Shown piece by piece: positions 20,515 through 34,950 of a stretch of DNA of 37,203 nucleotides. This DNA is from Nocardioidaceae bacterium (GTDB taxonomy: Bacteria > Actinomycetota > Actinomycetes > Propionibacteriales > Nocardioidaceae), in contig JACCZI010000031.1 of assembly GCA_013696015.1 (NCBI GenBank), positions 1 to 37,203 on the forward strand, in the 5' to 3' direction. How positions within the stretch are numbered: position 1 is the stretch's first letter; every line of letters begins with the position of its first letter. The notes beneath the pieces are model-generated. The model was not told the origin of the DNA, did not search any database, and saw only the letters and a list, made by a program, of their open reading frames with translations. The position numbers were made by a program, and so were the translations under genes.

Positions 20515-23500
20515 TCACCGGCTCAGGCAACTTGGGCCCAACAGCGCCTTCAGGTCGGCCATCAGCGACGGCGTCGCGCTGACCCGCATCCGCTCGTCGA
20601 GACGCAGCACCTTGGTCGAGGTCGCCGTTGTCAGCCGCAGCTGCACCTCTGTGACCCCGGGGTGGGTGCCGAGCACCTCCTTCAGGGCATCCACCGTCGG
20701 CGGGGTGCAGCGCGTCGCCGGAAGCGAGATCACCACCGGGCCGAGAGCGGCTCGACCGAGGTCGGGCACCACGACCTCGGTCGCGGTCACTTCTGGCACG
20801 TCGTCGCTGCGACGGAGCCGGCCCTTGACGACCACGATCGCGTCCTCGACGAGCAGCGGTGCCGCCAGCTGGTAGGCCGACGGGAAAAGCATGACGTTGA
20901 CCGCGCCCTCGAGATCCTCCAGCGTCACCACCGCCCAGGTGTCGCCCTTGCGGGTGACCTTGCGCTGGACGGCGGTGATCAGGCCGCCGACGCACACCTG
21001 GGCGTTGTCGGGCCTGGACTCGTCGGCGAGCAGCGTCCCGATCGTGCAGTCGCTAGCCGCCGCCAGCAGGTGCTCGAGGCCCAGCAACGGGTGGCTGGAC
21101 ACGTACAGTCCGAGCATCTCGCGCTCGTAGCCGAGCAGCGTCTGCTTGTCCCACTCGTCCATCTCGGGGATCCGGACCGACACCGCGCCGAAGACGTCGT
21201 CGTCGAGCCCACCGAAGAGCGAGTCCTGACCCATCGCCTCGTTGCGCTTGATGTCGACGTACTGGTCCACCGCGTCCTCGTGGACGGCGACGAGCGCCCG
21301 CCGGCGATGGCCCAACGAGTCGAACGCGCCGGCCTTTGCCAGCGACTCGATGACCCGCTTGTTGCACACGACCGGTGGAACCTTGTCCATGAAGTCGCCG
21401 AAGTCGGTGAACTTGCCCTTGGCGGTGCGGGTGGCCACGACCCCGGCGACGACATTGGCACCGACGTTGCGCACCGCGTTGAGACCGAACCTGACGTCGG
21501 TACCGACAGGGGTGAACGTGGCGTCGGACTCGTTGACGTCGGGCGGCAGCACCGAGATGCCCATCCGCCGGCATTCGCCGAGGTAGATCGCCATCTTGTC
21601 CTTGTCGTCACGGACCGAGGTCAACAACGCGGCCATGTACTCGGCGGGGAAGTTGGCCTTGAGGTAGGCCGTCCAGTACGACACCAGCCCGTAGCCGGCG
21701 GTGTGGGACTTGTTGAAGCCGTAGTCGCAGAAGGGCAACAAAGTGTCCCACAACGCCTTGACAGCCGCCGATGAGTAGCCTCTGTCGGCCATCCCCGAGC
21801 TGAAGCGCTCGTACTCCTTCTCCAGCACGTCGCGCTTCTTCTTGCCCATGGCCCGGCGCAGCAGGTCGGCCTGCCCGAGGGTGTAACCGGCGACCTTGCG
21901 GGCTATGGCCTGTACCTGCTCCTGGTACACGATCAGGCCGAAGGTCTCGTCGAGGATCTCGGCCAGCGGCTCGGCAAGCTCGGGGAAGATAGGGGTGACC
22001 GGCTTGCGGCCGTTCTTGCGGTCGGCGTAGTCGATGTGCGCGTTGGCGGCCATCGGGCCCGGCCGGTAGAGAGCCAGCACTGCTGAGATGTCCTCGAAGG
22101 CGGTCGGCGCCATCAACCGGAGCAACGAGCGCATCGGTGCGCCGTCGAGCTGAAAGACGCCGAGTGTGTCGCCGCGCGCCAGCAGACGGTAGGTCTCGGT
22201 GTCGTCCAGCGCCAACCCGTCGAGGTCGACCACCCGGTCGCGGTTCGCCTTGATGTTGGCCAGCGCATCGTCGATGACGGTGAGGTTGCGCAATCCGAGG
22301 AAGTCCATCTTCAGCAGGCCGAGGGTCTCGCAGGCGCCGTAGTCGAACTGCGTGATGATGGCGCCGTCCTGATCGCGGCGCATGATCGGGATGACGTCGA
22401 CCAGCGGCTCGCTGGACATGATGACCCCGGCCGCGTGGACCCCCCACTGGCGCTTGAGGTTCTCCAGCTGCTTGGCCGTGTCCACGATCGACCGCACGTC
22501 GGCGTCGCTCTCGTACAGGGTGCGGAACCCGCCTGCCTCTCCGTGGCGAGCGGAGCTCTCGTCGAAGATGCCGGACAGGGAGACGTCCTTGCCCATCACG
22601 GCGGGAGGCAGGGCCTTGGTGATCCGCTCGCCCATGGCGAAAGGGAAACCGAGGACGCGCGACGAGTCCTTGATCGCCTGCTTGGCCTTGATCGTGCCGT
22701 ACGTGACGATCTGGGCGACCCGGTCCTCGCCGTACTTCTGCGTGCAGTAACGGATCACCTCGCCACGTCGTCGCTCGTCGAAGTCGATGTCGATGTCGGG
22801 CATCGAGATCCGTTCGGGGTTCAGGAAGCGCTCGAAGAGCAACCCGTGCACCAGCGGGTCGAGCTCGGTGATGCCGAGCGCGTACGCGACGATCGCGCCA
22901 GTCGCCGAGCCGCGACCGGGTCCGACGCGGATGCCTTGTGACCGAGCCCAGTTGATGAAGTCAGCGACAACCAGGAAGTATCCGGGAAAGCCCATCTGCA
23001 GCACCACGCCGACCTCGAAGTCGGCACGCTCCCGGGCCGCCGCGGGGACGCCACCCGAGTAGCGGCGGGCCAGCCCGCGATCGACCTCCGCGACGAACCA
23101 GGTCTCCTCCGTCTCTCCCTCCGGCACCGGGAAGCGCGGCATCAGGTTGCGGCCTTCGGCGAACGCCACGTCGCCGCGCTCGGCGATCAGGAGCGTGTTG
23201 TCGCAGGCCTCGGGCAGGTCGCGCCACACCTCCCGCATCTCCTGCGGCGACTTGAGGTAGAAGTCGTCGGCGTCGAACTTGAAGCGGCTGGGATCGGCCA
23301 GCGTGGTCCCGGACTGGACGCACAACAGTGCGGCGTGACCGGTTGCCTCCTCGGGCCGGGTGTAGTGCAGGTCGTTGGTCGCGACCAGCGGGAGCTGTAG
23401 CTGGCGCGCCAGGCGCAACAGATCGGCACGCACCCGTCGCTCGATGCCCAGCCCATGGTCCATCAGCTCGCAGTAGTAGCTGTCGGCACCGAAGATGTCG

Positions 23501-24033
23501 CGGAGCTCCGCCGCCGCGCGCACCGCCTCGTCGTACTTGCCCAGCCGCAGCAGCGTCTGCACCTCACCCGACGGGCAACCCGTGGTGGCGATGATGCCCG
23601 TTGCATACTCCGAGAGCAGCTCAGCGTCCATGCGGGGCTTATAGAAGTAGCCCTCCAACGAGGCGCGGCTGGCCAGCCGGAACAGGTTGTGCATGCCTGC
23701 CGTGGTCTCCGCGAGCATCGTGATATGCGTGTACGCACCGCCACCGGACACGTCGTCCCCACCACCGTTGCCCCACCGCACCCGGCGCCGCTCGAAGCGG
23801 CTGGTGCCCGGGGTCAGATAGGCCTCGATCCCGATGATCGGTTTGACCCCGTTCGCCTGGGCTGCACGGTAGAACTCGTACGCAGCGAACATCGAGCCGT
23901 GGTCGGTGACGGCCAGCGCAGGCATACCCATGCGCGCCGACTCGATGAACAGGTCCCCGATCCGGGCTGCCCCGTCGAGCATGGAGTACTCGGTGTGGAC
24001 GTGCAGGTGCACGAACGAACCGCTGCTCGACAT
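20515..24033 (-). CDS. dnaE: DNA polymerase III alpha subunit (DnaE1 type, intact PHP domain)
   Basis: [19 protein letters not shown]..., [60 protein letters not shown]-terminal OB domain; no intein seen. Confidence 0.97.
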
Positions 24034-24125: not shown

Positions 24126-24599
24126 TCACGCGGGCCACCGCAACCGGATGTCGGGAGCCCGTTCCTCGTTGCCGGCGCCCCCCGTGCGCTCCACCTCGAC
24201 CAGTCCCCGCCGCAGGTAGAACCGCAGCGCGGCTGCGTTCGTCTGGAACACCCACAGGTCGAACCCGCCGGGTCGCAGCGCCTTGGCCAGCGACAGCAGC
24301 GTGGAGCCGATCCCCCGCCCGACATGGTCGGGCAGCACGTACAGGTGGTCGAGCCAGGAGTCGGCCAACACCAGCACCGCGACGAGCTGACCGGCTGCCT
24401 CGGCCACCCAGACCTCGCGGCTCACCATGGTCTCCGTGGCGAACCAGTGCGCGACCTCGGCGTCTGCGTGGACCCCAGCCGGGATCGCACCTGCATCCTC
24501 GGCGGCGCGCCGGGAGGCCGACAGCACGGCCGCAGCGGCCGCCCCGTCGCTCGGTTCGGCCGGGCGGGCCAACACCACAGCCGGCGCCTCAGGCGACAC
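24126..24599 (-). CDS. GNAT family N-acetyltransferase; probable GTG start at 24599
   Basis: [57 protein letters not shown]; the longer listed ORF runs antisense-free into the upstream pseudouridine synthase gene and is over-extended. Confidence 0.88.
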
Positions 24600-25518
24600 G
24601 GCGGACCACGTCGAGGGCGTGGGCCAGGTCGGTCGGGTACGGGGACTCGTACTCCGCCCAGCTGCCCGTGGCCGGGTGGGGGAACCCGAGCCGCACCGCG
24701 TGCAGCCACTGGCGCTCCAGTCCGGTGCGGCGGGCGAGTGTCGGGTCCGCGCCGTACGTGAGGTCGCCGACACAGGGGTGCCTCAGCGCACTCATGTGCA
24801 CCCGGATCTGATGGGTACGCCCCGTTTCCAGCCGGACCTCAAGCAGGCTGCCGTACCGGTGCGCCTCGAGGGTCTCGTAGTGGGTCACGCTCGGCTTCCC
24901 CGACGCCACTACCGCCCACCGGAAGGTGTGCCGGGGATGCCGGCCAATCGGCGCATCGACGGTCCCGGCGAGCGGATCGGGGTGGCCTTGCACCAGCGCG
25001 TGGTACGTCTTGGTGACGGTGCGCGACCGGAAGGCCCGCTTCAGCGTGGCATACGCCGGCTCCGACTTGGCGACCACCATCAGCCCGCTGGTGCCGACAT
25101 CGAGGCGGTGGATGACACCGGCCCGCTCCGCCGCACCGGAGGTGGCGATCCGGAAGCCGGCTGCGGCCAGGTGGCCGACCACGGTCGGCCCCGACCAACC
25201 CAGGCTGGGGTGGGCAGCGACACCGACCGGCTTGTCCACCACCACGAGGTCGTCATCGTCGTACACGACATGCAGGTCTGGCACGACCGCAGGCACCACC
25301 GCAACCGGACCCGGCGGATCGTCCAGCGTGACCTCGAGCCAGGCAGCCGCGGCCAACCGGTCCGACTTAGCCACGACGACACCGTCGATCCTCACGTTGC
25401 CTGACTCGACGAGCTCCGCCGAACGGGTCCGCGACAGACCGAGCAGGCGGGCCACCCCGGCGTCCACCCGTTCGCCGGCCAACCCTTCGGGCACGGGCAG
25501 CGTCCGTTGCTCAGCCAC
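24589..25518 (-). CDS. RluA/RluD family pseudouridine synthase with S4 domain
   Basis: S4 region [31 protein letters not shown]; catalytic [41 protein letters not shown]. Confidence 0.94.
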
Positions 25519-26068
25519 GTCCGGTGACGCCCACCCCGCGTACGGACTGCAGGATGACCAACCCGGCCGCGACCACGATGGCGCTGTCGGCGACGTTGAA
25601 CACCGGCCAGTGCGGCAGCTGGAGGAAGTCGACGACGTGGCCGCGCAACGGCCCGGGCGACCGCAGCAGACGGTCGGTCAGGTTGCCCAGCGCACCACCG
25701 AGCAGCAGCCCGAGCGCGACCGCCCAGCCGCGGTCGCGCAACCGGGCCGCGGTCCGCACCACGACCACGCAGACCGCCGCCGCGACAACGCTCAGCAGGA
25801 CCGTCAGGCCGGTGGCCATGCTGAATGCGGCGCCCGGGTTGCGGGTCAGGTGCAGCTCCAGGACTCCGGGCACCACCTCGACGTCCGGCCGGCCAGTGAG
25901 GAACTCGACGGCGAGGAGCTTGGTCACGACATCAACGACATAAGTCAGGGCCACTACAACGGCGAAGAGCCGGATCCGGCGCGGCGGAGCGGCTTCCTGG
26001 TCGTGCGGCGCAGGGTCGATGTCGGGGTCACCGGAGGCGCTCAGCGACGCTCCTCGCGCTGCTTGCAT
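25511..26068 (-). CDS. lspA: Lipoprotein signal peptidase (signal peptidase II); start near 26068
   Basis: [63 protein letters not shown]; catalytic Asp motifs. Confidence 0.94.
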
Positions 26069-26598
26069 GTCATGCACAGTGTGGCACGGGGGAAGGCCAT
26101 CAGCCGCTGCTTCCCGATCGGATTGCCGCACGACTCGCAGACCCCGTAGGTGCCATCGTCCAGACGGCCCAGAGCCCGCTGCACCTGGAAGAGCATCTCC
26201 CTGGTGTTGTTGGCCAGGGACATCTCGGCGTCCCGCTCGAGCGTCGTGGACCCCACGTCCGCCTGGTCGTTGCCGGCCCCGTCGCCGGTGTTGCGCAGCA
26301 GGTCCTGCAGATCCTGCTCGACCGACCGGATCTCGAGCCGCAGCCGGCCCTCGTCCGCCTCGAGCTCGCCGCGAACGTCCGCCAGCTCCCGGGCCATCCA
26401 AGGACGCTCGTCGGCCCGGACGACCAGCTTGCGCCCGGTCCGCTTGGCGGGTGCCTTCTTCGCGGGTGCCTTCTTCGCCGCTGTCTTCTTCGCGGGTGCC
26501 TTCTTCGCGGCTACCTGCTTCGGAGCCGGTGCGGCCTTCTTGGCGGGTGCCTTTTTCCGCGGCGACGCCGGCGGCGGTGCCCCCTTCTTGGTCGCCAT
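26041..26598 (-). CDS. TraR/DksA-type C4 zinc-finger protein with Lys/Ala/Pro-rich N-terminal tail; start ATG at 26598
   Basis: MATKKGAPPPASPRKKAPAKKAAPAPKQVAAKKAPAKKTAAKKAPAKKAPAKRTGRK..., C-terminus [35 protein letters not shown]. Confidence 0.9.
   Translation of the reverse strand: MATKKGAPPPASPRKKAPAKKAAPAPKQVAAKKAPAKKTAAKKAPAKKAPAKRTGRKLVVRADERPWMARELADVRGELEADEGRLRLEIRSVEQDLQDLLRNTGDGAGNDQADVGSTTLERDAEMSLANNTREMLFQVQRALGRLDDGTYGVCESCGNPIGKQRLMAFPRATLCMTCKQREERR
26451..26525. repeat. 15-nt tandem coding repeats (AKKAP/AKKTA units) in the zinc-finger protein tail
   Basis: gtgccttcttcgcgg / gtgccttcttcgccg / ctgtcttcttcgcgg / gtgccttcttcgcgg / ctacctgcttcggag. Confidence 0.85.
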
Positions 26599-26710: not shown

Positions 26711-26732
26711 GACCCGGCCGCAACAGCAGTGA

Positions 26733-26998
26733 CGGGACGAGTAGCCGCGGACTCTGCACCAGCAGCGACCTGGGGACGGTGGGAGCCCAGGGGTGCGCCG
26801 CAGCGAAGATCACCCCCGAGCCGCTGGCAGAACGGCCGGCGCGTGACCGGCTCACTAGACCCAGCAGCGGCAGCCTCGAGAGGGCAGCGGACGTCGCGAG
26901 CGGCGCCGCGGTCAAGGAGGGTGGTACCGCGGGAGGCGTCACCGGCGCCGAGCGTCCCTCCGCAGCGTGAGCTCCTGAGCCGGAGCGCTGACGGAGGA
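26733..26998 (+). promoter_or_regulatory. Ile T-box leader (translational, class II-like) of ileS
   Basis: AGTA 26740-26743; stem GCGG/CCGC, GCACC/GGTGC, CCTGGG/CCCAGG closing a GGTGGGA loop; GAAG-ATC-A with ATC specifier 26809-26811; T-box AAGGAGGGTGGTACCGCGG; alternative pairings of CCCTCCG with the T-box or with the ileS SD CGGAGG. Confidence 0.93.
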
Positions 26999-27002
26999 CC
27001 CG

Positions 27003-30000
27003 ATGACCACCGCAGAGACCGCTCCCGGCCAGGGCGTCGGCTACCGGCCGGTACCGCCGCAGATCGACCTGCCCCAGCTCGAGCGCGACATCCTGGCCCT
27101 GTGGGCCGAGCAGGACACCTTCGCCCGCACACTGCAGCAGACCGCCGGTGCTCGCCGCTGGACGTTCTACGAAGGGCCCCCGACCGCCAACGGCGTCCCG
27201 GGCGTCCATCACGTCGAGGCCCGGGTCCTGAAGGACGTGTTCCCGCGTCTCAAGACCATGCAGGGCTACCACGTCGACCGCAAGGCCGGTTGGGACTGCC
27301 AGGGCCTGCACGTCGAGGTCGGCGTCGAGAAGGAGCTCGGCCTGTCCGGCAAGCAGCAGATCGAGGCGTACGGCATCGCTGCGTTCAACGCGCGCTGCCG
27401 TGCGTCGGTCGAGCGGCACGTCGACGCGTTCGAGGAGATGACCGAGCGGATGGCCTACTGGGTCGACATGTCCGCGGCGTACCGGACGATGGACCCCGCC
27501 TACATCGACAGTGTGTGGTGGTCGTTGAAGCAGATCTTCGACAAAGGGCTGCTCGTCGAGGACCAGCGCATCAGCCCGTACTGTCCCCGCTGCGAGACCG
27601 CGCTGTCCGACCATGAGCTCGGCCAGCCGGGTGCGTACGAAACGGTCGCCGATCCGTCGGTCTACGTCCGGCTGCCGCTGACCTCGGGTCCGCTGGCCGG
27701 GCGGGCTGCGCTGCTGGTGTGGACGACGACACCGTGGACACTGGTGTCCAACACCGCCGTGGCGGTGCATCCCGACGTCGAGTACACCGTGGTCACCGAC
27801 GGCTCGCAACGCCTCGTCGTCGCCGAACCCTTGCGTGAGCAGGTGCTGGGCGATCGCTGGGACGTCGAGCAGCGGCTGCGCGGTGTCGACATGGAGCGTT
27901 GGACGTACGAGCGCCCGTTCGACCTGGTCGACATTCCCGCACCCGCCCACTACGTCGTGCTGGCCACCTACGTCACGACCGCGGACGGCACCGGGCTGGT
28001 GCATCAGGCCCCCGCATTCGGGGCCGACGACCTCGCCGTGGCCCGGGCCTACGGGCTGCCCGTGGTCAACCCGGTCCGAGCGGACGGGCACTTCGCGGAC
28101 GAGGTGCCACTGGTCGGCGGGCAGTTCTTCAAACATGCCGACACCGACCTGATCAACGACCTGGACCGTCGCGGTCGGCTGCTGCGACATGAGACCTACG
28201 AGCACTCCTACCCGCATTGCTGGCGATGCCACACGCCGCTGATGTACTACGCCATGCCGTCGTGGTACATCCGGACGACGCAGGTCAAGGATGCGTTGCT
28301 CCGCGAGAACGAACGCACGGCGTGGTACCCGGACACGATCAAGTGGGGTCGTTACGGGGACTGGCTGCACAACAACGTCGACTGGTCGCTGTCACGATCG
28401 CGTTACTGGGGCACGCCGCTGCCGATCTGGCGCTGCCCCGACGGGCATCTGACGTGCGTCGGGTCACGCACCGAGCTCGCAGGCTTGTCGGGGACCATGC
28501 TCGACGACCCCCATCGGCCGTTCGTCGACGAGGTGACGTTTTCGTGCCCGGAGTGCGGCGAGCCGGCGCGACGTGTGCCCGAGCTCATCGATGCGTGGTA
28601 CGACTCCGGCTCGATGCCCTTTGCTCAGTGGGGCTACCCGACCCTCGACGGATCGGAGGACGAGCTGGACCGGGCGTACCCCGCGCAGTTCATCTGCGAG
28701 GCGATCGACCAGACCCGCGGCTGGTTCTACTCGCTGATGGCGATCGGAACGCTGGTGTTCGACCGGTCCGCGTACGAGAACGTCGTCTGCGTCGGCCACA
28801 TCGTCGCGGAGGACGGCCGCAAGATGTCGAAGCACCTCGGCAACATCCTGGAGCCGATGCCGCTGATGGAGCGCCATGGGGCGGACGCGCTGCGGTGGTT
28901 CATGGCCTGTGCCGGGTCCCCGTGGTCATCCCGCCGTGTCGGACACACTGTGTTGCAGGAGATCGTGCGCAAGGTGCTGCTGACGTACTGGAACACGGTG
29001 GCGTTCCACGTTCTCTACGCCCGCACCGCGGGCTGGACGCCCGCCTCCGGTGCAGCACCCCCCGTCGGTCAACGCCCGGTGCTCGATCGCTGGCTGGCCG
29101 GGCGCACCTCGGTGCTCGTGCGCGAGGTGACCGCGGCGATGGAGGGCTTCGACACCCAGCGGGCGGGCAGCCTGCTCGCCGACTTCATCGACGACCTGTC
29201 GAACTGGTACGTGCGTCGGTCGCGACGGCGCTTCTGGAACGGCGACGTCGCCGCACTCGCCACGCTGCACGAGACGGTGGAGGTGCTGACCCGCCTGCTG
29301 GCACCGCTCACGCCGTTCGTGACCGAACGGGTGTGGCAGGACGCGGTGCGTTGTGTGGACCCGGCTGCTGCGGACTCGGTTCACCTGGCGACCTGGCCCG
29401 AGCCGGACGAGACCCTGGTCGACGACGAGCTCGACGCCCAGGTACGGCTGGCCCGTCGCCTGGTCGAGCTCGGACGAGCCGCGCGGGCGGAGGCCAAGGT
29501 GCGCAACCGGCAACCGCTGCGCCGGGCGCTGATCGGCTCCAGCGGGTGGACGGCGCTGTCCCCCGAGCTGCGCGCGGACGTCGCGGCCGAGCTCAACGTC
29601 GGCTCGGTGGAGTCACTGGCCGCGGCCGACGGGGACCTCGTCGAGCACTCCGCCAAAGGCAACTATCGAGCGCTCGGCCGGCGCTTCGGGAAGCAGACGC
29701 CGACGGTCGCTGCCGCCATCGCCGCCGCCGACGCGGGGGCGCTGGCCGCCGGGCTGACCGCCGGCCGGGCGAGCGTCGAGGTCGACGGTCAACAGGTCGC
29801 GCTGATCCCGGAGGAGGTCATCGTCTCCGAGCGTCCGCGCGAGGGCTGGTCGGTGGTGAACGAGCACGGCGAGACCGTGGCCCTCGACCTCGAGATGACT
29901 CCGGATCTGGTCCGTGCCGGCCTCGCTCGCGAAGCGGTCCGGCTGGTCCAGGAGGCCCGCAAGACAAGTGGTTTCGACGTCAGTGACCGGATCGAGCTGT

Positions 30001-30182
30001 GGTGGGAAGCCGACGGCGAGCTGGCGCAGGCACTCACCGAACATGAGCAGCTGCTTGCGGACGAGGTGCTCGCCACCGCGGTCACCGTCGGCCGGCCGAA
30101 CGACGCCTCGTTGCCCGCTCACGGCGACACCGATCTCCACCTCACGTTATGGATTCGTCGCCCGGCCACACCGGCGGAATGA
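27003..30182 (+). CDS. ileS: Isoleucyl-tRNA synthetase (IleRS2-like, GVHH variant of the HIGH motif)
   Basis: TFYEGPPTANGVPGVHHVEARVLKDVFPRLKTMQGYHVDRKAGWDC..., editing domain LLVWTTTPWTLVSNTAVAVHPD, KMSK loop EDGRKMSKHLGN. Confidence 0.97.
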   Translation: MTTAETAPGQGVGYRPVPPQIDLPQLERDILALWAEQDTFARTLQQTAGARRWTFYEGPPTANGVPGVHHVEARVLKDVFPRLKTMQGYHVDRKAGWDCQGLHVEVGVEKELGLSGKQQIEAYGIAAFNARCRASVERHVDAFEEMTERMAYWVDMSAAYRTMDPAYIDSVWWSLKQIFDKGLLVEDQRISPYCPRCETALSDHELGQPGAYETVADPSVYVRLPLTSGPLAGRAALLVWTTTPWTLVSNTAVAVHPDVEYTVVTDGSQRLVVAEPLREQVLGDRWDVEQRLRGVDMERWTYERPFDLVDIPAPAHYVVLATYVTTADGTGLVHQAPAFGADDLAVARAYGLPVVNPVRADGHFADEVPLVGGQFFKHADTDLINDLDRRGRLLRHETYEHSYPHCWRCHTPLMYYAMPSWYIRTTQVKDALLRENERTAWYPDTIKWGRYGDWLHNNVDWSLSRSRYWGTPLPIWRCPDGHLTCVGSRTELAGLSGTMLDDPHRPFVDEVTFSCPECGEPARRVPELIDAWYDSGSMPFAQWGYPTLDGSEDELDRAYPAQFICEAIDQTRGWFYSLMAIGTLVFDRSAYENVVCVGHIVAEDGRKMSKHLGNILEPMPLMERHGADALRWFMACAGSPWSSRRVGHTVLQEIVRKVLLTYWNTVAFHVLYARTAGWTPASGAAPPVGQRPVLDRWLAGRTSVLVREVTAAMEGFDTQRAGSLLADFIDDLSNWYVRRSRRRFWNGDVAALATLHETVEVLTRLLAPLTPFVTERVWQDAVRCVDPAAADSVHLATWPEPDETLVDDELDAQVRLARRLVELGRAARAEAKVRNRQPLRRALIGSSGWTALSPELRADVAAELNVGSVESLAAADGDLVEHSAKGNYRALGRRFGKQTPTVAAAIAAADAGALAAGLTAGRASVEVDGQQVALIPEEVIVSERPREGWSVVNEHGETVALDLEMTPDLVRAGLAREAVRLVQEARKTSGFDVSDRIELWWEADGELAQALTEHEQLLADEVLATAVTVGRPNDASLPAHGDTDLHLTLWIRRPATPAE

Positions 30183-30469: not shown

Positions 30470-31219
30470 TCAGCGCTTCTCGTCTTCCCCGAGCAGCGAG
30501 TGGAGGCGGCGCGGGCTGTGCTCGGAGTCGCCTCCGGGCAGCGGAGCGGCAACCGTCTGCTCCCCCTCGAGCTGGGCGAGCTGGCTCTTGAGGTAGCTCT
30601 GCAGCCGGCTGCGGTACTCGCGCTCGAACGAGCGCAGGCGGTCGACCTCTCGGGACAGCCTGTCCCGCTCCTTCTCGAGGTCGCCCAGGAGCTGCTGACG
30701 GCGCTCGGCGGTCTCGGTGTCGAGCTTCTCGGCCCGCATGTGGGCGTCCGACTCGAGCCGGTCAGCCTTGCCGCGGGCTTCGTTCTCGGTGCGCTCGGCG
30801 CCGGTGCGGGCCTCGGCCAAGATCTGGTCGGCCTGGTCCTTGGCCTCGCCCACCAGCTCGTCGGCGTTGCGGGTAGCCAGCTCGAGCAACCGCGCAGCCG
30901 CACCGGACACTTCGCCGATCGTGGCCGGGGCCGCGACGGCGGCCGGTGCGGCGACGGTTTCGGGCGCCGGGGGCGGGGTGGCCTCGACTACCGCAGCCGG
31001 ACGAGGCTGCTCGACCGGGCGCTGCGGGGCGGCAGGGGCGGAGCTCGTCGACGACGCCGCGGTCAGCTTGGAGCGCAAGTCGTCGTTCTCGGCGGCGAGC
31101 CGCTCCAACTCCGTCTCGACCTCGTCGAGGAACTGGTCCACCTCTCCCATGTCGTAACCCTCACGAAGACGAACGGGAGTGAAACGCTTGTTGCGCACGG
31201 CCTCCGGCGTCAGTGGCAT
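30470..31219 (-). CDS. divIVA: DivIVA/Wag31-family polar growth/cell division coiled-coil protein
   Basis: MPLTPEAVRNKRFTPVRLREGYDMGEVDQFLDEVETELERLAAENDDLRSKL; long coiled coil. Confidence 0.95.
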   Translation of the reverse strand: MPLTPEAVRNKRFTPVRLREGYDMGEVDQFLDEVETELERLAAENDDLRSKLTAASSTSSAPAAPQRPVEQPRPAAVVEATPPPAPETVAAPAAVAAPATIGEVSGAAARLLELATRNADELVGEAKDQADQILAEARTGAERTENEARGKADRLESDAHMRAEKLDTETAERRQQLLGDLEKERDRLSREVDRLRSFEREYRSRLQSYLKSQLAQLEGEQTVAAPLPGGDSEHSPRRLHSLLGEDEKR

Positions 31220-31608: not shown

Positions 31609-32088
31609 TCAACTCTGGTTGAAGAAGCCGCCTTCGGCGATGCGCTGCTTGTCCTCGGCAGCGACCGAGACGTTAGGTGGGGACAGCAAGAACACCTTGT
31701 TGGTGACGCGCTCAATCGTACCGTGCACCGCGAAGACCAGGCCGGCGGCGAAGTCGACGAGCCGCTTGGCGTCGTTGTCGTCCATCTCCGAGAGGTTCAT
31801 GATCACCGGGATGCCCTCCCGGAACTGCTCTCCGATCGTCCGGGCCTCGTTGTAGGTCCGCGGGTGCAGCGTCGTGATCCGCGACAACTCGGCGGAGCGG
31901 ACCGGTGTCGGCGCCGTACGCCGGCGCTCCGCCAGCTGCGTCACCGACGAGCCGGAGGCGACATGCGCCTCGCGCACCGGACGGGTCTCACGAGCGGCGG
32001 TGTCGTGGGCGTCGTAGTCATCATCGAAGCGTTCGGTGTCCTCGAGCAGCCCTAGGTACACACCAACCTTGCGCATCGCGCCAGCCAT
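31609..32088 (-). CDS. sepF: Cell division protein SepF; likely start at MAGAMRKVG (32088)
   Basis: [26 protein letters not shown]... [70 protein letters not shown]. Confidence 0.95.
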
Positions 32089-32150
32089 GGGCTCTCGACC
32101 TCCGGTTGCCTCATTGCCGCGCAGGGCGGTTGCTCTGCGCGACCCTGACA

Positions 32151-32852
32151 TTACCTGTTCGGAGGCCGCTCACCGAGGATCGCGCGGCCTATCCGTACGT
32201 GTGTCGCACCTACTGCTACGGCCGCCTCGAGGTCGCCGCTCATGCCGGCCGAGACGGCCAGCGCGGTGGGGTGGGCGGCCTGGACCGAGGCGGCGACCTC
32301 GGCTAGCCGGGCGTAGGCCCGTGCCGGGTCAGCGGCCAGCGGCGCGACTGCCATGACGCCGCGCAGTCGCAACGCCTCGGCCGCCGCGATTTGGTCGGTC
32401 AGCGCGGGCACCTCGTCGACCTTCGCCCCGGAGCGGCTGTCGGCTGCCCCAGGCGGATCGAGGCTGACCTGCACCAGGCAGTCGAGGTGTCGGCCGGCCC
32501 GGGAGGCACCGTCTGCCAGAGCGTCGACCAGCCGCTCCCGGTCGACCGAGTGCACCAGGTCGGCGTAGCCGGCAACGGCCCGCGCCTTGTTGGTCTGCAG
32601 CCCTCCGACGAAGTGCCAGGTCAGCGGCGCCGCCACCGCCGCCGCCTTGTCACGCGCCTCGGGGTGGCGGTTCTCACCGACGTCGGTCACCCCGAGCTCG
32701 GCCAGCAGCTGCACGTCGGCTGCCGGAAACGTCTTCGTGACCACCACCAGTGTGATCGAGGTGGGGCTCCGCCCGGCCGCCTGCGCGGCTGCCTCGATAC
32801 GGCGTCCGACGCTGGCCAGGCCCGCTGCCAGCTGGTCGCGCCGGGTGCTCAC
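32151..32852 (-). CDS. YggS/PROSC family pyridoxal-phosphate homeostasis protein; GTG start overlapping pgeF stop
   Basis: [30 protein letters not shown]..., [40 protein letters not shown]. Confidence 0.94.
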
Positions 32853-33580
32853 GAGCGGAGCTGCGCCGTGCCGCCGAGCCGGCCGGAGCGCTTCCCCTGC
32901 CGTCGGTAGGAGAAGAGGTCGACATTCTCGTACGTGCACGTCGCGACCTGCGCTGCGACGTCGATGACGTCGATGCCCTCTGCGGCCAGCTGTGCCGCGA
33001 CACCGGCGCCGATGTCGAGACCGGGAGTCCCTCGTCCGGTCGTCGCCCATGCTTGCGGGACCACGCGCGCCACCTCGTCCCGCATTGCGTGCGGCACCTC
33101 GTAGCAGCGACCGCAGATGCGCGGGCCGAGCCAGGCCGTGATGAGGCTTGCTCCCTCCCGGCGCATCGCCGCAGCGGTGGCGGCGACAATGCCGGCCACC
33201 ATTCCCTGGCGGCCGGCGTGGGCGACCGCTACGACCTCTGCCAGCGGGTCGGCGAGAACCAGCGGGACGCAGTCGGCTGCCCGGACCAGCAGCGTGAGCT
33301 CGGGCGTGCTCGTCACCAGCGCGTCCGCAACCGGAATGTCGTCGGGCACGGCGTTCAGCACAGCAACGTCGGCGCCTTTGACCTGGCTCATCCGAACGGT
33401 GCGTTCGGGCCGGGCATCGAGACCCCCGGCGAGTGCTGCGAAGTTGGACCTGACCCGCGCCGGGTCGTCGCCGTTGCTGGTGCCGAGGTTCAACGAGGAC
33501 CAGGGGCCCTCGCTGACACCTCCGTGACGGTCGGTGAACGAGATCTCGACGACACCCATGGAGTCGCGAAAGGCGAACAC
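32849..33580 (-). CDS. pgeF: Multicopper polyphenol oxidase / YfiH-family purine nucleoside phosphorylase
   Basis: FTDRHGGVSEGPWSSLNLGTSNGDDPARV..., ADCVPLVLADPLAEVVAVAHAGRQGMVAGI, GPRICGRCYEV. Confidence 0.93.
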   Translation of the reverse strand: MFAFRDSMGVVEISFTDRHGGVSEGPWSSLNLGTSNGDDPARVRSNFAALAGGLDARPERTVRMSQVKGADVAVLNAVPDDIPVADALVTSTPELTLLVRAADCVPLVLADPLAEVVAVAHAGRQGMVAGIVAATAAAMRREGASLITAWLGPRICGRCYEVPHAMRDEVARVVPQAWATTGRGTPGLDIGAGVAAQLAAEGIDVIDVAAQVATCTYENVDLFSYRRQGKRSGRLGGTAQLRS

Positions 33581-34855
33581 CTACTTCAAGAAGTCCGGGA
33601 CATCGAGCTCGTCGTCGTCGAAGCGGACCGGACGTGGCTGGCGCGCCGGCTGCTGGGGCGCCTGCTGGGCCGGCGCCGAGACCGGCCCGGAACCCGGAGC
33701 GTTCCCAGGTGCCGGCGCGTTTGCACCGACCGGCACCGGCTGGGCCGGCATCCGAGGGCGAACGGGGTCCGGTTGCGGCGCCGGCGGGATCCGCTCCGGC
33801 TCCTGCCGCGCTGGCCTGGCCGCGCTCGCACCCTGAGGGCTCCCGGTCGGACGTTGTGGCGGACCTGAGTCCCGACGCAGCGCCGGCTGCCCGATGTCAC
33901 GCCGCTTGGGAGTCCCACCGTCGAAGCCTGCGGCGATCACCGTCACCCGGACCTCGTCGCCAAGGGCGTCGTCGATCACCGCGCCGAAGATGATGTTGGC
34001 CTCGGCGTGCGCGGCCTGGCTGACCAGAGCAGCCGCCTCGTTGATCTCGAAGAGGCCGAGGTCGGAGCCGCCGGCGATCGACAGCAGCACACCGTGCGCG
34101 CCGTCGATGGACGCCTCGAGCAGCGGGCTCGACACCGCCATCTCAGCCGCGGCCACGGCGCGCTCCTCACCGCGAGCGGAGCCGATGCCCATCAGCGCCG
34201 AACCAGCGTCGGACATCACCGACTTAACGTCGGCGAAGTCGAGGTTGATCAGGCCCGGCGTCGTGATCAGATCGGTGATCCCCGAGACGCCTTGCAGCAG
34301 CACCTGGTCGGCCTGCTTGAAGGCGTCCAGCACACTGACGCTGCGGTCGCTGATCGAGAGCAGCCGGTCGTTGGGGATGACGATGAGGGTGTCGACTTCC
34401 TCGCGCAGCGAGGCGATGCCGTCCTCCGCCTGGTTGGCCCGGCGACGTCCCTCGAACGAGAACGGTCGGGTGACCACACCGATCGTCAGGGCGCCGATCG
34501 AGCGGGCGATCCGGGCGACCACCGGCGCGCCGCCGGTGCCGGTCCCGCCGCCCTCGCCGGCGGTGACGAACACCATGTCGGCGCCCTTGATCACCTCTTC
34601 GATGTCATCGGCGTGATCCTCGGCAGCCCGGCTGCCGACGTCGGGGTTGGCCCCGGCACCCAGCCCTCGGGTCAGCTCGCGACCGATGTCGAGCTTGACG
34701 TCGGCGTCGCTCATCAGCAGCGCCTGCGCGTCGGTGTTGATGGCGATGAACTCCACGCCACGCAATCCGACCTCGATCATCCGGTTTACCGCGTTGACGC
34801 CGCCGCCACCGATGCCGACGACCTTGATAACCGCCAGATAGTTCTGCGCTGCCAC
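33581..34855 (-). CDS. ftsZ: Cell division protein FtsZ; probable GTG start at 34855
   Basis: [45 protein letters not shown]..., [14 protein letters not shown]-terminal [13 protein letters not shown]. Confidence 0.97.
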
Positions 34856-34950
34856 GGCGCGCACCTTCCGTTTGATGTGGTGGCCGGCCCCTGGTGGGAG
34901 CGGCATCTGGACTCGGCTGTGCGGGGAAGGTCGTCGGTCTCCGTTTCCTC

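Follow-up and report, generated by a model that had tools for sequence, protein, structure and literature searches.

A type-2 isoleucyl-tRNA synthetase with a swapped GVHH signature in the divIVA-dksA slot of a Nocardioidaceae bacterium

The window, by which we mean the whole 37,203-nucleotide stretch of Nocardioidaceae DNA analyzed here, carries genes in the order ftsZ-yggS-sepF-divIVA-ileS-dksA-lspA-rluD-dnaE, with ileS on the strand opposite to that of divIVA and dksA (Table 1). The true start of lspA lies further downstream than that of its open frame, because the 5′ part of the frame overlaps the dksA frame. The ileS frame opens with ATG at 27003 and encodes 1059 amino acids with no internal stop. 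Its product scores 855.8 bits against the TIGR00392 ileS profile, whose cut-off is 621.4, and matches Pfam families PF00133, PF08264 and PF19302. The best PDB match is the Thermus thermophilus type-2 enzyme (1ile, E 1.2e-256); Priestia megaterium IleRS2 (8c8w and related entries) is matched at E about 1e-250, and type-2 enzymes rank ahead of all type-1 enzymes. The C-terminal DUF5915 domain was found, and our main tree splits the window enzyme from IleRS1 at SH-aLRT 100. By its sequence, the protein is a full-length type-2 isoleucyl-tRNA synthetase (IleRS2).

Table 1. Genes and features around ileS in the window, with the evidence for each.
Feature	Position	Strand	Evidence
dnaE, DNA polymerase III alpha	20515..24033	-	PF07733, PF17657
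rluD-type pseudouridine synthase	24589..25518	-	PF00849
Open frame containing lspA (signal peptidase II)	25511..26401	-	PF01252
DksA/TraR-type zinc-finger protein, divergent from ileS	26041..26598	-	PF01258, E 9e-14
Probable T-box leader of ileS, translational type	26716..27002	+	RF00230, specifier, T-box sequence, hairpin
ileS, type-2 isoleucyl-tRNA synthetase, 1059 aa, DUF5915 C-terminal domain	27003..30182	+	Open frame, TIGR00392, Pfam
GVHH, swapped class I HxGH signature, residues 67-70	27201..27212	+	Codons read; aligned with HVGH of 1ile
GWDCQGLHVE, residues 96-105 (H100Q and P103H)	27288..27317	+	Alignment; GWDCHGLPVE in almost all relatives
KMSKH, second class I signature, residues 607-611, fifth residue His not Ser	28821..28835	+	Alignment
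DivIVA-type protein, convergent with ileS	30470..31219	-	PF05103
sepF, YggS-like (Ala_racemase_N), ftsZ	31609..34906	-	PF04472, PF01168, PF00091

The stretch upstream of ileS is a probable T-box leader. All three elements sought were found: an Ile specifier, ATC (AUC), at 26809-26811; a T-box sequence, GGGTGGTACCGCGG, at 26919-26932, with a chance expectation of 0.04 per window in shuffles when one mismatch is allowed; and a hairpin at 26954-26999 (-26.2 kcal/mol, z -2.7) that covers the Shine-Dalgarno sequence at 26993-26997. A permissive search matched RF00230 at 26720-26827 (32.4 bits, E 2.2e-5), and at the Rfam gathering score of 93 there is no match in the leader. Folded alone, the stem I and antisequestrator segments are no more stable than expected (z 0.9 and -0.5), so the assignment rests on the conserved elements and the sequestrator hairpin. 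Translational T-boxes upstream of actinobacterial ileS are already known (PMC1262725); the window leader shares their Ile specifier, T-box sequence and Shine-Dalgarno-sequestering hairpin, but it scores under the Rfam gathering value and is known here from its sequence elements. It probably senses uncharged tRNA-Ile and would control ileS expression at translation.

The preliminary description had reported GVHH where the class I signature HxGH is expected, and this is borne out by the codons, ggc gtc cat cac in frame with the ATG, which give G67-V68-H69-H70 in the context ...YEGPPTANGVPGVHHVEARV... Pairwise alignment lays these residues onto H54-V-G-H57 of T. thermophilus IleRS2 (1ile), so the motif is not misplaced. 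With Gly first and His third and fourth, it is of the swapped type written G/AXHH (Gly or Ala at position 1, His at 3 and 4).

We examined how widespread the motif is. The phylum sample comprised 109 loci, in which G/AxHH is the commonest IleRS2 form and HYGH the main alternative; the few IleRS1 sequences read carry HxGH or HxGT. Among the nearest named relatives, G[ATV]HH was read directly in 80 of 80 (79 motifs being readable in the alignment), and KMSKH is likewise present in all 80. In the main tree, of 126 rows with the motif columns excluded, the window IleRS falls in a 22-row KMSKH clade (SH-aLRT 100) with Streptomyces griseus, Kribbella and Aeromicrobium, its nearest neighbors being the enzymes of two Nocardioidaceae MAGs (L038 and L039). 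A second, smaller tree is concordant, with less support for the nearest branches. S. griseus IleRS2 (L099) is 66% identical to the window enzyme, which thus shares a clade with the GXHH enzyme cited for a millimolar Ki. Alignment and phylogeny with IleRS1 and IleRS2, proposed earlier as a check, therefore place the enzyme inside the GxHH clade, and its earlier reading as a real active-site variant of that IleRS2 class stands. Because relatives share the motif and the trees group them, GVHH is inherited and fixed; its conservation in the nearest relatives and, as G/AxHH, in most sampled IleRS2 of the phylum rules out an origin by chance or sequencing error. The window comes from a draft assembly of 317 contigs, where an artefact made from canonical HVGH might be suspected, but GxHH and the same flanking residues occur in all close relatives, independent isolates and MAGs alike, and we give an artefact practically no probability.

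Some sampled enzymes carry other forms of the signature. Two IleRS2 (L020 and L029, from G104 and G071; family f13) have canonical HIGH and are nested in a GxHH family at SH-aLRT 96-98; from this placement, HIGH is read here as a natural reversion, outside Deinococcus-Thermus. Another (L155, G036) has GVHN, a swapped motif in which the fourth His is lost too. Four deep-branching IleRS2 (L186-L189, from G141, G101, G121 and G109; families f43 and f44) have GVHH or AVHT, with KMSKS altered to EFSKS, EMHYS, DMHYS and EMHGS, GPI or GPV in place of GPP, and GFDCQGLW, that is, Gln at the position of window residue 100 but Trp at that of 103; each is the sole strong ileS match in its genome, and these genomes are 90-97% complete. 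They may represent the minor IleRS2 clade of Brkic et al. 2023 (PMC10485003). Three IleRS1 (L193, L194 and L195, from G015, G119 and G048) have HLGT or HVGT, with Thr in place of the fourth His; every IleRS1 sampled in the published survey had HXGH (PMC10485003).

Copy number was examined in the window genome (2.3 Mb) and across its order. A second ileS, which the preliminary description had proposed looking for, is absent from the PF00133 matches in this 84.6%-complete assembly, where the others are ValRS, LeuRS and MetRS. Among 59 genomes of the order, classed by identity (neighborhoods and most motifs were read in 40 loci), 25 have the GxHH type only, the window's included; 23 have the HYGH type only, including 16 of the 18 in the window's family; and the remaining 11 carry both types. 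The dual genomes are G153, G159, G163, G168, G172, G174, G179, G187 and G202 (L239-L256), and by identity class also G193 and G199. In all nine that were examined, it is the GxHH-type gene that sits between divIVA and dksA, with the HYGH gene at another locus. An upstream T-box sequence is absent from the second copy in all five Kribbella-like genomes examined and present in all four examined from family f51. Two further genomes (L259 and L260, from G152 and G175) have an HYGH-type ileS in the exact divIVA-dksA slot that holds the GxHH ileS of their relatives, an apparent in-place replacement. HYGH IleRS2, typical of Mycobacterium-like and most Nocardioides-like Actinobacteria, resemble the window enzyme in being type 2, often with a T-box and sometimes in the same genome or slot; they differ in their canonical signature and separate clade, and are about 40% identical. 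A limited literature search turned up no account of a single genome carrying two IleRS2 types, which is weak evidence of novelty. With 84.6% completeness and 11 of 59 genomes dual, a second ileS could be missing from the window assembly; we infer, provisionally, that the window ileS is the cell's only IleRS.

The swapped motif might instead be a recent horizontal acquisition, a resistance allele gained under exposure to mupirocin, as the patchy distribution of GxHH and HYGH IleRS2 across the order, and the movement of ileS2 between lineages exemplified by plasmid-borne mupA, would allow. Against this, S. griseus, Kribbella, Aeromicrobium and the two nearest Nocardioidaceae MAGs all have a GxHH ileS between divIVA and dksA, placed and oriented as in the window, and both trees group the window enzyme with those of Propionibacteriales and Streptomyces. 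Among plasmid records, the only one with a close homolog was an 11.85-Mb Nonomuraea entry, evidently a chromosome, and the exchange seen at the slot in G152 and G175 ran in the opposite direction, HYGH into the GxHH position. We reject a recent mobile acquisition of ileS on the strength of synteny, tree and plasmid search, and we hold the resistance-allele reading to be very improbable. A chromosomal, syntenic slot and a probable T-box leader mark a housekeeping ileS, not a resistance cassette. Sequence, class, clade, gene neighborhood and leader elements were all observed directly, and we are highly confident that the window encodes the normal housekeeping IleRS of a Propionibacteriales actinobacterium, passed down vertically and belonging to the swapped-G/AXHH class of IleRS2.

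The biochemistry of this class has been described. Of 163 IleRS2 surveyed by Brkic et al. (2023; PMC10485003), 86 carried the non-canonical G/AXHH, and the swap was shown to lift the Ki for mupirocin into a range from tens of micromolar to millimolar; these kinetics agree with the link between GxHH in an IleRS2 subset and strong mupirocin resistance that the preliminary description had mentioned. The Deinococcus radiodurans enzyme (ALHH) has a Ki of 6.6 mM, lowered 823-fold by changing ALHH to HVGH, and S. griseus IleRS2 is cited as an enzyme with millimolar Ki (PMC10485003). Conversely, GVHH put into canonical IleRS2 raised the Ki about 200-fold or more, from 0.20 to 35 micromolar in T. thermophilus and from 1.08 to 460 micromolar in P. 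megaterium, at a loss in kcat of at most 10-fold (PMC10485003). Crystal structures place the third His of the P. megaterium mutant where the first His usually lies; the shifted motif of IleRS2 leaves space for adenine, and the change is not accepted by IleRS1 (PMC10485003).

By analogy with these homologs, His69 would take over catalysis from the usual first His, and hyper-resistance, with a Ki near millimolar, is expected because its bulk should clash with bound mupirocin. The window enzyme shares with the G/AXHH IleRS2 of S. griseus and D. radiodurans the swapped signature, the IleRS2 domain plan and the kept catalytic and editing residues, and lies in the S. griseus clade; it differs in having Val second in the motif and a rare Q100/H103 pair. 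It resembles canonical HXGH IleRS2 (1ile; P. megaterium 8c8v) in domain order and sequence, aligning over long stretches at E below 1e-240, but these have HVGH, not GVHH, and are 10^2- to 10^3-fold more sensitive to mupirocin (PMC10485003). The staphylococcal plasmid-borne MupA and MupB are also of the IleRS2 class; they are about 35% identical and encoded by a mobile second gene, whereas the window ileS is chromosomal. The window protein scored 718 and 690 bits against the MupA and MupB models, for which the NCBIfam cut-off is 1900, and on these scores both identities are rejected. The mupirocin insensitivity predicted in the preliminary description is thus upheld as an expectation for the enzyme, which on tree placement and published GXHH kinetics is expected to be almost insensitive; insensitivity of the host organism is a further inference, as a second ileS may lie in the unassembled part of the genome. 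The trait is best read as intrinsic resistance of a housekeeping enzyme.

The preliminary description had also taken the rest of the enzyme to be intact. This holds for KMSKH, which is fixed in the Streptomyces/Propionibacteriales GxHH clade as sampled, KMSKS being the usual form elsewhere in the phylum, and for the editing-domain stretches TTTPWTL (241-247) and GTGLVHQAPAFGADD (329-343). It holds as well for P59, D98, W532, Q570 and W574, aligned with T. thermophilus P46, D85, W518, Q554 and W558, which we take to be isoleucine-site residues, Asp85 presumably binding the amino group. What was overlooked is H100Q and P103H, which adjoin Asp98, the counterpart of Asp85. In a comparison of about 200 sequences, both changes recur in L039 alone; it is from an independent genome and about 72% identical, and the two positions are otherwise nearly invariant. 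Such changes, together with GVHH, KMSKH and the incomplete assembly, might point to an inactive or repurposed enzyme with an eroded active site, another IleRS serving the cell. Yet the remaining substrate-site and editing residues are intact, strongly conserved columns deviate at only eight positions across 1059 amino acids, T-box and synteny are retained, and the Gln/His pair recurs in the independent genome of L039; we see scarcely any chance that this reading is right, and keep to that of a housekeeping IleRS.

Other class I synthetases of the window genome also depart from their signatures. The sole MetRS found (G000:C289:9380-10975; L006:805-2403, P0002) has PSIGNAY. His is first in the motif in 56 of 58 readable MetRS of the same type in the phylum (such as HIGH, HIGS or HLGH). 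SIGN recurs in one other MetRS (L316, G208), 77% identical and from the genome of L038, so in the window genome it is not an error. Both HIGH histidines are absent from this lineage. Ser-Ile-Gly-Asn resembles TIGN, the motif of bacterial TrpRS. The window-genome MetRS further has H301N, R339K, D232N and G49Q, none of them in L316; it could be degenerate, or the assembly may lack a second MetRS. A limited literature search found no description of SIGN in MetRS, again weak evidence of novelty. The ValRS (L330; G000:C271:10800-11700) has HVGS; among the six ValRS of its type that were read from the order, five have HVGH and one HPGH. That H100Q/P103H is a second active-site remodeling after GVHH, forming with MetRS SIGN and ValRS HVGS a genome-wide loosening or retuning of class I signatures, we consider unlikely; if true, it could stem, for example, from the pressure of natural synthetase inhibitors.

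As the standard form of its clade, described in 2023, GVHH is not remarkable in itself, and the swap is already explained by that work. With the window enzyme, the known GXHH IleRS2 gain a member from the Nocardioidaceae, and in Streptomyces, Kribbella and Aeromicrobium GxHH is the normal form rather than an exception. The survey leads are genomes with both GxHH and HYGH enzymes, a natural return to HIGH within a GxHH family, HYGH taking the place of GxHH at one chromosomal slot, and a MetRS lineage lacking both HIGH histidines.
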